From a virus, in IMG/VR virus record IMGVR_UViG_3300025732_000320, positions 1 to 21,247 of that record: a stretch of DNA of 21,247 bases. The stretch is one strand, 5' to 3'. Numbering within the stretch: position 1 is the first letter of the stretch; every line of letters starts with the position of its first letter. The notes beneath the pieces were generated by a model. It searched no databases. It saw only the letters and a program-made list of their open reading frames with translations, and was not told where the DNA came from. Positions 10,860 to 20,031 of this stretch are shown piece after piece. The position numbers were made by a program, and so were the translations under genes.

Positions 10860-12932
10860 ATGCCGCCCCGGGGTATATCCGACGATGAGCTCCACCGCAC
10901 CATCGAGGCGTGGTGGACCGCCGACCGCAACCGTGCCGTCGCAGCCCGGAAGCTCGGTCTGTCAGTCGCCGGCCTCGACAAGCGCATGTCGATCGCCACG
11001 TCGCGCGGCATGATCGACCACGCGCCGAACGGCCAGCCAAGGCCCGCCGACCTGTCGCTCAGGAACTTCAAGGTCGACACACTCCCAGACGAAGACGCGC
11101 CGGTTGACGAGATATTGAAGCGCCGGACGCGCGAGTTCGAGCGCCGCAGCCGGGCCAACGATGCGCGAAAGCTCGTGCATGTCCGGGTGGCCGACAAGGG
11201 GCCGATCGGCATCGCCATCTTCGGCGACCTGCACATCGACTCCCCCGGCTGCAATCTGCCGCTTCTTCGTTCTCATATCGAGCTGGTCAAGAAGACACCG
11301 GGCCTCTACGCCGGGTGCATCGGCGACCTGCAAGACGGGTGGGTCGGCAGGCTCGCGCGGCTCTGGGCAACCCAGGGCGTCACCGCGAAGGAAAGCCTCA
11401 AGCTGGTCCGCTGGTACATGGAGCAGTTGCAGGACAAGCTCCTCTTCGTCGTCGAGGGCAATCATGACTGTCTCGATATGGAGACGGAGGCCCTGACGAC
11501 GCGCGGCTGGATGTCATATGACCAGATCCGAGATGACGATCTGGTCTACTCCATAGACCCGGAGACCGGAACCGGACATTGGGACCGCATCAACGGTCGT
11601 ATTCGGCGACCCGCTCGCGAGGGCGAGCTTGTTTCTATCGAGACGCGGTCTCTCTCGCTTCGCTGTACCCCCAAGCATCGCGTGCTCGTTCAGGGGAAGA
11701 CCGGCCAAAGGCGCGGGTGGCGATTTACCACGGCAGACAAGCTGCCGCCTTACGTGACGGTTCCGGCTTCCGCGCAATGCCTCAACCCGGACTTGGACGG
11801 CATCTCTGACGACATGCTCAGGCTTGTCGGCTGGATTTTGACCGACGGGATGATCCATCAGGCTGAGCGGGGCACCCCCACTATCGCCATATACCAGAGC
11901 AAGGACGGCTCGGAGATCGAGCGGACCCTCGGTAGCCTTGGTTTGCGTCATTCCAAGCACACGCGGCAGCGCAACATCACGGCCGTTTGTGGTAGGCCGC
12001 TGGTCAAGCCATCGCGGCCCGAGGTTCAGTATCGTCTTTCGTCCGAGGCTGCTCGGCAGGTTCTCCCGTGGCTGCCGGACAAGTCGCGCCTGCCGGAATG
12101 GGTCGCTAAGCTAAGCGCCCGTCAGTTTGACGTGTTTCTTGGCGCCATCATTGCCGGAGACGGCTCATGGGTCGGTAAGCGTGATGGCCGGTGCGCCGTC
12201 ATCCATGGCCGCAAGAAGTTCCTCGATGAGGTTCAGGCCGCTGCGGTGACGCATGGCTGGTCGGCCTTTTTGAGCGTCGCTCGCGAGAAGGACTGGCGCC
12301 TGAATCTCTCCCGGCGACCCCGTCATACGCTCTGGCGGGACGAAAGGGTGAGCCGCGAAACCTACCAGGGCGATGTCTGGTGCTTGACCGTGCCGCTGAG
12401 CAATTTCCTCGTTCGTCGGAACGGGAAGGTGCATTTCACCGGAAACTGCTGGGCCAACGGGGTCAACGGCATCAGCCCTATCGAATGGATCGCCGCGCAT
12501 ACGGGGACGCTGACGCAATCGGATGGCGTGCGGCTGTCGGTCGACCTCGGCGGCGAAAGCTGGGTCATGAACGCCCGTCACGACTTCCGGGGCCGCTCGC
12601 AATGGAACGCCGCGCATGGCGGGACCAAGGCGGCGATGATGGGCTGGCGCGACGACATCATGGTCGCCGGGCATACCCACGAGAGCGGGTACAACATCAT
12701 CAAAGACCCGAAGACGGGGATGGTGACGCACGTTCTCCGGGTCGCCTCGTACAAGCATATCGACGCCTACGCCAAGACCGAGGGCTTCCCCGACAACAAC
12801 AGCTTCGAGTGTCCTGTCGTTATCCTCAGACCGCGCGTTGCGGATGACAGGTTCCGCACGCAGACGATCACCGATCCTTTCCTGGCGGCGAAGTGCCTCG
12901 GTGTGCTGAGGCGGGAGGCGAGCCGTGGCTGA
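10860..12932 (+). CDS. Metallophosphoesterase with N-terminal HTH, interrupted by an intein
   Basis: A 690-residue precursor. Residues of about 8-50 look like a helix-turn-helix DNA-binding segment (AVAARKLGLSVAGLDKRM). Calcineurin-like phosphoesterase motifs follow: GDLH (122-125), GDLQD (155-159), GNHD (200-203), a lone His in NARHD (574) and GHTH (604-607). The residues of the two-metal centre are present. Residues 204-529 are an intein placed immediately after GNHD; removing it gives a 364-residue enzyme, the usual size. The substrate is unknown; DNA or cyclic nucleotide phosphodiester cleavage is possible. The gene follows a TAG without a gap and overlaps the next gene by 8 bases. The phosphoesterase call is firm, the biological role is not. 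Confidence 0.9.
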   Translation: MPPRGISDDELHRTIEAWWTADRNRAVAARKLGLSVAGLDKRMSIATSRGMIDHAPNGQPRPADLSLRNFKVDTLPDEDAPVDEILKRRTREFERRSRANDARKLVHVRVADKGPIGIAIFGDLHIDSPGCNLPLLRSHIELVKKTPGLYAGCIGDLQDGWVGRLARLWATQGVTAKESLKLVRWYMEQLQDKLLFVVEGNHDCLDMETEALTTRGWMSYDQIRDDDLVYSIDPETGTGHWDRINGRIRRPAREGELVSIETRSLSLRCTPKHRVLVQGKTGQRRGWRFTTADKLPPYVTVPASAQCLNPDLDGISDDMLRLVGWILTDGMIHQAERGTPTIAIYQSKDGSEIERTLGSLGLRHSKHTRQRNITAVCGRPLVKPSRPEVQYRLSSEAARQVLPWLPDKSRLPEWVAKLSARQFDVFLGAIIAGDGSWVGKRDGRCAVIHGRKKFLDEVQAAAVTHGWSAFLSVAREKDWRLNLSRRPRHTLWRDERVSRETYQGDVWCLTVPLSNFLVRRNGKVHFTGNCWANGVNGISPIEWIAAHTGTLTQSDGVRLSVDLGGESWVMNARHDFRGRSQWNAAHGGTKAAMMGWRDDIMVAGHTHESGYNIIKDPKTGMVTHVLRVASYKHIDAYAKTEGFPDNNSFECPVVILRPRVADDRFRTQTITDPFLAAKCLGVLRREASRG
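11469..12446 (+). mobile_element. Intein with LAGLIDADG homing endonuclease domain (326 residues)
   Basis: The element is in frame inside the phosphoesterase. It begins with Cys204 in CLDMETEALTTRGW (block A) and has TPKHRVLV (270-277), the block B Thr-x-x-His signature. Two LAGLIDADG-type motifs follow: LVGWILTDG (322-330, Asp329) and FLGAIIAGDG (426-435, Asp434). It ends with WCLTVPLSNFLVRRNGKVHF and Thr-Gly-Asn529 (blocks F and G). Cys530 is the +1 extein nucleophile. The penultimate residue is Gly instead of the common His, a variant I recall from many phage inteins that still splice. Both acidic endonuclease residues are kept, so the homing domain may be active. A sampled stretch (11521-11580) has 33/60 G+C against 40/60 in the extein at 12601-12660, consistent with separate ancestry. 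Confidence 0.93.
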
Positions 12933-15143: not shown

Positions 15144-16124
15144 CTAACCTTTCAGCTTCGCCATCTTCCGCTTCGCCTCGCGGACCTCGCGGATGCCGGC
15201 TGACTGATAGCGGAGAGACGATGACGCGCTGGCGTGCCCGAGGGCTTCCATGATCGTCTTCAAGCCCGCTCCCGACTCGTTGAGCCAGGTGCCGACCGAA
15301 TGGCGGGCCATGTGCGGGGTGAACTCGACGCCGAGCCTCTTGGCGAGCGGCCAGAGCCACTTGTAGACGCTCGACCGATCGGACCAGGGCCACAGGGGCT
15401 TCGCCTGATCCTCGTTCGCCAGCGCCGCCACCAAGGCGTCGTCCAAGGGGAAGGTTTTCCATTCCTGGGTCTTGCTGACCCAGACCTTCACCGTGGCCTG
15501 CCGAAGGTCGATCTGCGGCCACTCGATACGCAGGGTCTCGGTGATCCGCGTGCCCTGGCCGAACAGCCACAGGATGAGCAGGCGCTTCTTCCCCTCGGTG
15601 TTGGCCAAGAGGAGCTTTCTGACGGACCTGGAGGCCGCCCTGGTGGTCGGCCTCGGCTCCTTGAAGAGTTTGACCCGGAGCCAGTCGCGCCACTTGTTCT
15701 CCGCCGCGTAGTGCAGGATTGCCGCTGCGGGCTTGATGACGCCGCGGTTCTTCGTGGCGTTCTTCTTCCCCGCGTACAGGGCGTTGGCGGCCTCGACCAG
15801 ATCCGCGTGCACCATCCTGGCGACCACCTTCCCGCCCATATGCAGGATGAGCTTGTCGATGCGCAGGCGGTCGGCCTTCGAAGGGTTCCGCCAGCCGATG
15901 TAGCGCTGAGCGGCTTCCTCGAACGTCAGGGTTTCTGCATCGGGACCACGTTCCCGCTGGGCTTGGGCGAGAAGTCGGACGCTGAGGTCCGCTGCAAATC
16001 GTTCCGCAGCGCCCTTGTCTGCCGTCTGCGTAGACATCTCAATGCGTCTGCCGCCGACCGTCCCCCGGACGATGTAGTAACGATTGTCTTTCCGTCTTCC
16101 TGGGGCAACGAGTTTGAGGGGCAT
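15144..16124 (-). CDS. int: Tyrosine-recombinase integrase
   Basis: A 326-residue site-specific recombinase that joins phage attP to host attB and, with an excisionase, reverses it. The core residues can be placed: Arg193 in GQGTRITETLR, Lys218 in SKTQEWK, His271-x-x-Arg274 in HMARHSVGTWL, His297 in LGHAS and the nucleophile Tyr306 in SLRYQSAG. The N-terminal part (about 1-60) resembles the arm-binding domain of Rhizobiales phage integrases, and about 65-150 the core-binding domain. GAGG about 5 bases before the ATG supports the start. The 5' end overlaps the excisionase-like gene by 199 bases in another frame. The catalytic set is complete, so the enzyme is probably functional. Confidence 0.93.
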   Translation of the reverse strand: MPLKLVAPGRRKDNRYYIVRGTVGGRRIEMSTQTADKGAAERFAADLSVRLLAQAQRERGPDAETLTFEEAAQRYIGWRNPSKADRLRIDKLILHMGGKVVARMVHADLVEAANALYAGKKNATKNRGVIKPAAAILHYAAENKWRDWLRVKLFKEPRPTTRAASRSVRKLLLANTEGKKRLLILWLFGQGTRITETLRIEWPQIDLRQATVKVWVSKTQEWKTFPLDDALVAALANEDQAKPLWPWSDRSSVYKWLWPLAKRLGVEFTPHMARHSVGTWLNESGAGLKTIMEALGHASASSSLRYQSAGIREVREAKRKMAKLKG

Positions 16125-16300
16125 GGCGGCCTCAGAGCCTCCTTGAGCCTTGCATAGGCGGGTTCATCGAAGAGATAGGAGCGGCCCAGTTTGATCGGCC
16201 GCACTTCCGGGTGCTCGGCAAGACGACGGCGTAGGGTGCGCGTCGAAGTGTGCAGCCGCGCCGCCACGTCCTCAAGCGTCATTTCCCTGGCCTGCGTCAC
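15926..16300 (-). CDS. Excisionase-like HTH protein overlapping the integrase gene
   Basis: A 124-residue frame beginning with GTG at 16300; an ATG at 16282 (residue 7) is an alternative. Residues of about 7-56 form a helix-turn-helix of the MerR/excisionase type: MTLEDVAARLHTSTRTLRRR followed by a wing with KLGRSYLFDEPAYARL. The C-terminal half (residues of about 59-124) is Ser/Arg/Pro-rich and coincides with the out-of-frame start of integrase, so it may be tail sequence without a fold. Excisionase genes just upstream of and overlapping int are known in lambdoid phages. It would bend attachment-site DNA and set the direction of recombination. The HTH part is well supported; the extent of the C-terminus is less so. 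Confidence 0.7.
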   Translation of the reverse strand: MTQAREMTLEDVAARLHTSTRTLRRRLAEHPEVRPIKLGRSYLFDEPAYARLKEALRPPCPSNSLPQEDGKTIVTTSSGGRSAADALRCLRRRQTRALRNDLQRTSASDFSPKPSGNVVPMQKP

Positions 16301-19056: not shown

Positions 19057-19562
19057 TTCCGCCTCACGCTCAGGGTGACGCCGCCGTTGGAGAGCATCGC
19101 GCCGGGAACGTCCTTCTTGGCCTTCAGGGCAGCGCTGATGCCCGCCTTGTCCAGCTTGGGGTCCTGCGGCTTCCAGTAGTCGGCAGGGATGGCCTTCTCG
19201 TCGGTGACGATCACGGCGGCCGGGGTGGCCTGCACCGAGACGGTGAAGTCCGGGGCCTCAATCCTCTTCAGGCAGGCCCGCTCCATCGTGTGCTGGACAA
19301 GGGCTTCCTTCGCCTCGATCCGGCGCTCGATGCGCTTCTTGCGCTCGTTCAGTTCCTCGACGCGGGCCTTGATGCCGGCGACCAGAAGCCCGTCCTCGTC
19401 CGCCGATCGCAGGACGGCGATAAGCAGGGCGTCCAGATTGCTTTCGCCTTCCAGCGTGTCGGCGAGCGTGTCCTCATCTGCGGTCGGGAAAGCTAACCTC
19501 AGCTGATCGCGTAAGTATTCGTGATGGGCGAGCGCCACCTGAATTGCATGTGCGTTAGACAT
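19053..19562 (-). CDS. Gp157-family phage protein
   Basis: A 169-residue protein with GGAG a few bases before the ATG. The middle is a long charged coiled coil (about 65-95: IKARVEELNERKKRIERR). It is followed by the conserved block EAPDFTVSVQATPAAVIVTD, then YWKPQDPKLDKAGISAALKA and VPGAMLSNGGVTLSVRRK. This is the signature of the Gp157 family, first noted in Streptococcus phages and linked to phage resistance and recombination modules. It is usually beside single-strand annealing or SSB genes, as here. The mechanism is unknown. Its first bases overlap the end of the HNH endonuclease gene by 8 bases. Confidence 0.88.
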   Translation of the reverse strand: MSNAHAIQVALAHHEYLRDQLRLAFPTADEDTLADTLEGESNLDALLIAVLRSADEDGLLVAGIKARVEELNERKKRIERRIEAKEALVQHTMERACLKRIEAPDFTVSVQATPAAVIVTDEKAIPADYWKPQDPKLDKAGISAALKAKKDVPGAMLSNGGVTLSVRRK

Positions 19563-20031
19563 GGCTCCACACCCTCTTGGTTCGAATAGCGTAGACGTGA
19601 GAGCGATTAAGCCCGTATTTACGGGCGAGCTTCGTCAGTCCCAAGGTGCTTTGACGGATGGTCAGAACATCGTCGGCTGAGAGCTTCGCCCGCCCATTCT
19701 CTTCTCCTGCCGTGATCCCGCGACGACGCCCCTTGTTAGCCATGTCGGTCATGTTGTCCTCGTTTGTTCCGAGGAAAAGATGATCCGGGTTGACGCAGCA
19801 CCGCACATCGCAGCGATGCAGGACGAAGAGGCCGTCCGGGACTGTGCCCCGGTGCAATTCATATGAATGTCGGTGAGCCAAGACACTTCTGGCACCATTC
19901 CAAAAGTGGCCGTATCCACTCGTTGTCAGACCGCCAAGCCAAAGCCAGCAGCCACTATTGGGCTCGGGCGTGTAGCGAGTGGGGAAGCGCGTCGCCAGCG
20001 GAAGCCTGCGCCTGATGTATTTACGCGGCAT
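19555..20031 (-). CDS. Free-standing HNH homing endonuclease
   Basis: A 158-residue protein. About residues 24-60 carry GCWLWLGGLTTSGYGHF and AHRHSYELHRG, and the core is LHRCDVRCCVNPDHLFLGT (71-89) with His72, Asn81 and His84 as the HNH residues and Cys74, Cys78 and Cys79 as likely zinc ligands. It continues NMTDMANKGRR, typical of HNH_3-type homing enzymes. The C-terminal part (about 117-155) is a helix-turn-helix (SADDVLTIRQS ... KLARKYGLNRSHVYAIRT) that would read the target. GGGAG precedes the ATG. It overlaps the upstream gene by 11 bases and the Gp157 gene by 8, so it is snugly inserted. It may cut phages lacking it and spread by repair. Confidence 0.88.
   Translation of the reverse strand: MPRKYIRRRLPLATRFPTRYTPEPNSGCWLWLGGLTTSGYGHFWNGARSVLAHRHSYELHRGTVPDGLFVLHRCDVRCCVNPDHLFLGTNEDNMTDMANKGRRRGITAGEENGRAKLSADDVLTIRQSTLGLTKLARKYGLNRSHVYAIRTKRVWSHV

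Follow-up and report, generated by a model that had tools for sequence, protein, structure and literature searches.

This locus raises the question of why the reading frame of a phage phosphoesterase gene is interrupted, directly behind one of the metal-binding motifs of the enzyme, by 326 codons, and of what those codons encode. The reading that we prefer, at a probability of about 95%, takes the insert for a class 1 intein that carries a LAGLIDADG endonuclease, stands at the GNHD site of a phage phosphoesterase and is distantly related to the inteins of mycobacteriophage recombination directionality factor (RDF)/metallophosphoesterase genes.

A phosphoesterase gene divided after its GNHD motif

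The window, that is, the whole stretch of DNA analysed, corresponds to an IMG/VR virus record 21,247 bases long, in which the precursor gene forms a single open frame of 690 codons plus a stop codon (10860-12932, + strand). The initial annotation had placed an in-frame insert of 326 codons at 11469-12446, behind GNHD at residues 200-203, and these coordinates and numbers are all correct. The insert begins at Cys204 (nt 11469), ends at Asn529 (nt 12446) and has exactly 326 codons, and Cys530 follows it; joining the flanks without it gives a protein of 364 residues. GC content at the third codon position is 0.73 in the insert versus 0.86 in the flanks. The gene and its extein features are:

10860..12932 (+): precursor gene, predicted intein-containing calcineurin-like metallophosphoesterase (690 aa), PHROG 7339
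10860..11468 (+): N-extein, 203 aa, with a helix-turn-helix-like N-terminal stretch and then GDLH, GD and GNHD motifs; common to intein-free relatives
11223..11234 (+): GDLH metal-binding motif, residues 122-125; D123 invariant
11457..11468 (+): GNHD motif, residues 200-203, directly before the insertion point; G200, N201, H202 and D203 invariant
11469..12446 (+): predicted intein, 326 residues, HINT splicing domain plus LAGLIDADG homing endonuclease
12447..12932 (+): C-extein, 161 aa, beginning with Cys+1 and carrying the metal motifs RHDF and GHTH
12669..12680 (+): GHTH metal-binding motif, residues 604-607, within the C-extein

As the initial annotation had also described, metal motifs of the host enzyme stand on both sides of the insert (GDLH, GD and GNHD before it, RHDF and GHTH after it), and because they are split in this way the precursor is probably inactive until spliced. 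A second IMG/VR contig (L006) covers the same region with 99.9% identity over 8659 bases and encodes a precursor protein that is 100% identical, which makes a local assembly error unlikely. A near-identity DNA search of the whole window against named phages gave no match.

At positions 4-118 the profile of PHROG 7339 (263 positions) aligns with the N-terminal flank of the insert (E 3e-22), and at 121-250 with the C-terminal one (E 4e-12). Since it spans both flanks and skips the insert, nothing in the family corresponds to the inserted residues. PHROGs names this family 'DNA repair exonuclease', and the enzymatic activity, whether nuclease or phosphatase, is predicted from that name. Scanning viral contigs gave 225 relatives, of which 80 were kept, and scanning bacterial genomes gave four. 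Among the 81 related loci with script-readable motifs the insert is present in one, the L006 contig described above, which belongs to the same phage as the window. The distance from GNHD to the NARHD-type motif is 42-49 residues in nearly all insert-free loci, versus 371 in the window; in one locus of this count (L032) the motif script picked a wrong upstream match. At 60 distinct intein-free sites the residue corresponding to +1 is Ala in 49 and Cys in seven, so that the Cys+1 required for splicing occurs there naturally.

Intein-free alleles, for which the initial annotation had proposed a search, are thus plentiful at the level of the family, with about 80 relatives lacking the insert. They are some 37-46% identical to the window in protein, and no near-identical intein-free allele was found among them. 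The same protein in Pseudomonas phage vB_PaeP_FBPa42, for example, is 39% identical and reads GNHD-AWSG without an insert. The gene lies in the replication region of that phage, and in the window between virion/ejection genes and the endolysin gene. The helix-turn-helix-like stretch at the start of the phosphoesterase (window 10860-11010) is found in intein-free relatives as well.

Enzymes of this kind can have insert domains, and the 326 residues could in principle be an ordinary part of the phosphoesterase that is never excised, such as a DNA-binding or nuclease domain. We take this to be almost certainly wrong, given the many relatives that do without the insert, the Cys start and Asn-Cys end that fall exactly at its boundary, its predicted intein-homing endonuclease fold and the presence of a homologous insert at the same point of an otherwise barely similar extein (both described below). 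The initial annotation would have given up an intein had homologues shown the same 326 residues as a normal domain, or had there been no intein-less alleles at all, and neither was found.

Two other parts of the window were noted in passing. A free-standing HNH endonuclease gene at 19555-20031 (- strand; PF13392, E 6e-14), adjoining Sipho_Gp157 and Rad52-type genes, is possibly another homing element. A tyrosine integrase gene at 15144-16300 (- strand) has an excisionase-like HTH gene directly upstream of it, from which the phage is probably temperate.

Splicing motifs and predicted fold of the insert

The motifs to which the initial annotation had pointed within the insert and at its end (Cys1, a TPKH block B, two LAGLIDADG motifs, a terminal Asn and Cys at +1) are all present, and they are arranged as follows:

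11469..11507 (+): intein block A, beginning with the nucleophile Cys1 (CLDMETEALTTRG); C1, T10 and G13 invariant
11649..11690 (+): intein block B (SLSLRCTPKHRVLV), with TPKHR, T67 and H70; T67 and H70 invariant
11820..11849 (+): LAGLIDADG motif 1, RLVGWILTDG, insert residues 118-127, with acidic D126; helix 114-126
12135..12164 (+): LAGLIDADG motif 2, FLGAIIAGDG, insert residues 223-232, with acidic D231; helix 217-230; D231 invariant
12363..12413 (+): intein block F (YQGDVWCLTVPLSNFLV), including YQGDVWCLTVP; Cys305 is position F:4
12423..12446 (+): intein block G, GKVHFTGN, with His322, Thr324, penultimate Gly325 and terminal Asn326

The insert has the features of a class 1 intein, with Cys1 as nucleophile, T67-P-K-H70 in block B and a terminal Asn326 that is followed by Cys+1 (Cys530). 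Across eight aligned inteins, the invariant residues include Cys1, T67, H70, D231, V303-W304-C305, G325 and N326. Penultimate in the window intein is Gly325 and not the usual His, a residue of block G that is usual for class 1 inteins and not a defining one. Matches to intein family models are weak and lie below the curated cut-offs (Pfam Intein_splicing, E 0.0024; NCBIfam intein_Nterm, E 0.0097). Among named phages the insert matched 491 records, and in 287 of these the match covered 80% or more of the insert.

Searching the PDB by sequence with the insert returned no relative, and relatives there were seen through fold comparison alone. An AlphaFold2 model built from the eight-intein alignment (mean pLDDT 86.3, pTM 0.85) was compared with the PDB using Foldseek, with the TliVMA intein as the best match (E 2.4e-13), followed by PI-PfuI, PI-SceI and then the LAGLIDADG endonuclease I-DmoI. 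The predicted model has the HINT fold, as judged from its similarity to intein structures, and the two LAGLIDADG motifs fall on helices, as expected, with the Asp kept in each. TliVMA (7qsu), PI-PfuI (1dq3) and PI-SceI (1vde) are like the window intein in combining HINT with a two-motif LAGLIDADG endonuclease, but they are only 9-14% identical to it in sequence and their hosts are other proteins. Motifs and predicted fold agree with the initial reading, in which an intein bearing a LAGLIDADG endonuclease interrupts the active site at GNHD.

The Cys at F:4 invites a different view of the chemistry, in which the insert is a class 3 intein and splicing is begun by Cys305 of block F rather than by Cys1. 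Class 3 inteins are defined by the WCT signature (Trp B:12, Cys F:4, Thr G:5) together with the lack of an N-terminal nucleophile, and class 1 inteins with Cys at F:4 have also been noted (PMC3196547). Two of the three signature residues, Cys at F:4 and Thr at G:5, are present in the window intein. Position B:12, however, is Val, and with no Trp at that position and Cys1 in place we rejected class 3 splicing as highly improbable here.

For a class 1 intein, the established pathway and the residues present suggest how the insert would be removed. Cys1 would form a thioester with Asp203 just before it, the acyl group would be transferred to Cys+1 (Cys530) and cyclisation of Asn326 would then release the intein, with the two halves joining as GNHD-CWANG to yield the 364-residue enzyme. 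We infer that the window intein splices in this manner, and that its endonuclease can cut the intein-free site. During co-infection the endonuclease would cut intein-free alleles at the GNHD codons, and repair would copy the intein in.

The same insertion point in mycobacteriophages

The best of the 491 named-phage matches is the metallophosphoesterase of mycobacteriophage Turj99, which aligns with query residues 1-326 of 326 at 30.4% identity (E 1e-29). The Turj99 gene reads GNHD-CSWTNARAVTRRG...KIHLTGN-SRARDYL, an insertion point identical to that of the window. In their survey, Kelley et al. 2016 catalogued 37 inteins in mycobacteriophage RDF/metallophosphoesterase (PMC5050341). The suggestion of the initial annotation that host gene and site may be new is not upheld, as a homologous intein at the same site in cluster A1 mycobacteriophages was published in 2016 (PMC5050341) and 16 further viral contigs have inteins in phosphoesterase genes (next section). 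Outside mycobacteriophages, no published description was found of an intein in the PHROG 7339 host subfamily.

The cluster A1 intein (Bethlehem gp51, Turj99 gp50) is like that of the window in its position after GNHD, its architecture, its similar size (317 versus 326 residues), Cys1, the penultimate Gly and the terminal Asn, and the two are about 30% identical over the full length. It differs in having Ser rather than Cys at +1. Its host phosphoesterase belongs to a different subfamily from that of the window, without significant overall similarity (E 6). Equating Turj99 gp50 with Bethlehem gp51 rests on their shared description, cluster and intein length, Gly316 being next to last in both.

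The Bethlehem gp51 intein, with its penultimate Gly, has been cloned and splices completely in E. coli, whereas changing the Gly to His strongly slows splicing; toxicity required the use of an endonuclease-inactive mutant (PMC5050341). These results bear on the question of whether the window carries an intein by descent that is decaying or already dead for splicing, which would leave the phosphoesterase inactive or as a two-piece protein. The Gly in place of the penultimate His and the family-model scores below cut-off could be taken that way. But since the Gly-bearing Bethlehem intein splices, the absent His is no sign of a dead intein, and penultimate Gly is in fact common to every same-site intein with a readable end. 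Moreover, the intein retains Cys1, T67, H70, N326 and the Asp of each endonuclease motif, Cys+1 is in place, and the 690-codon frame is open and identical in the second contig. Loss of splicing is thus very unlikely in our estimate, and an intact class 1 intein remains the preferred reading.

When the 30 bases surrounding the empty site are compared as DNA, the window and Turj99 agree at 20 positions. A homing site shared with Turj99 was considered on this basis and set aside; intein-free relatives agree with Turj99 at 14-19 positions and with the window at as many as 22, and since they score similarly the agreement says little. In trees, the window and mycobacteriophage inteins were grouped with support of 72/90 in a tree of 21, but are not sisters in a tree of 36 phage inteins, where they fall in separate small clades, the mycobacteriophage intein in the one neighbouring that of the window.

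Inteins at GNH(D/E) in other phage phosphoesterases

A degenerate DNA pattern, written for GNH(D/E)-Cys and a following intein start, was run over viral contigs and matched 17 stretches. Each is a phosphoesterase-type ORF in which an intein begins, and one of them is the window's own relative. Sixteen further viral contigs (L125-L141 except L129) carry phosphoesterase inteins, eight after GNHD and eight after GNHE. Where the ends of same-site inteins lie inside the open frame, they read (T/S/A)GN and then Cys or Ser. The corresponding pattern placed one residue earlier (GNH-C) returned mostly chance ORFs, with a few real cases (L142, L153, L154). In public records the annotations of such genes are inconsistent, and include 'phosphoesterase', 'LAGLIDADG endonuclease', 'metallophosphoesterase and HNH endonuclease' and 'hypothetical protein'.

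Two of these loci are close to the window in the tree of 36, in which the inteins of the window, L132 and L139 form one clade (support 100/99). In L132 (IMGVR_UViG_3300032225_000578) the intein likewise follows GNHD and is 45% identical to that of the window over its full length, and the two host proteins, with 35% identity across 318 residues (E 6e-53), belong to one family, but the +1 residue is Ser. We know of no published description of the L132 intein. L139 (IMGVR_UViG_3300044960_000205) has a natural mini-intein of 159 residues after a phosphoesterase GNHD, with most of the LAGLIDADG domain deleted and the splice junctions intact. The exteins of L139 and the window gave no blastp match at E 10, and the joint clade of their inteins, despite such dissimilar exteins, points to movement of inteins between phosphoesterase families. 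The sample for the tree was partly chosen by pattern, and the tree is therefore no measure of how common such inteins are.

A more distant case is the phosphatase intein of Rheinheimera Barba phage (L005, P0004), which is like that of the window in its similar size, in its location in the GNH motif of a calcineurin-like phosphoesterase and in its TGN-C end. Unlike the window intein it lies one residue earlier (GNH-C), and it is 23% identical to it and distant in the tree.

Other observations were made on single contigs. In L130 (7244-9196) the second LAGLIDADG motif reads LEANAS instead of ..GDG, and the endonuclease of this same-site intein hence looks decayed. L108 (IMGVR_UViG_3300020034_000004) has a RecB/Cas4-like exonuclease ORF with apparently two inteins, of which the second lies upstream of the one that was matched.

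This collection gives good support for GNH(D/E) as a site at which inteins recur in phage phosphoesterases that are otherwise dissimilar. A broader proposal would make it a general hot spot across many phage groups, at which one or a few intein lineages hop between phosphoesterase families sharing mainly the active-site motif and splicing serves as a post-translational switch; taken as a whole, switch included, we consider this unlikely. With the window, the intein site published for mycobacteriophages is now also seen in an uncultivated phage, in a phosphoesterase of a different family. Together with the 16 contigs, the GNH(D/E) motif makes a useful test case for inteins that follow a conserved active site between dissimilar hosts.
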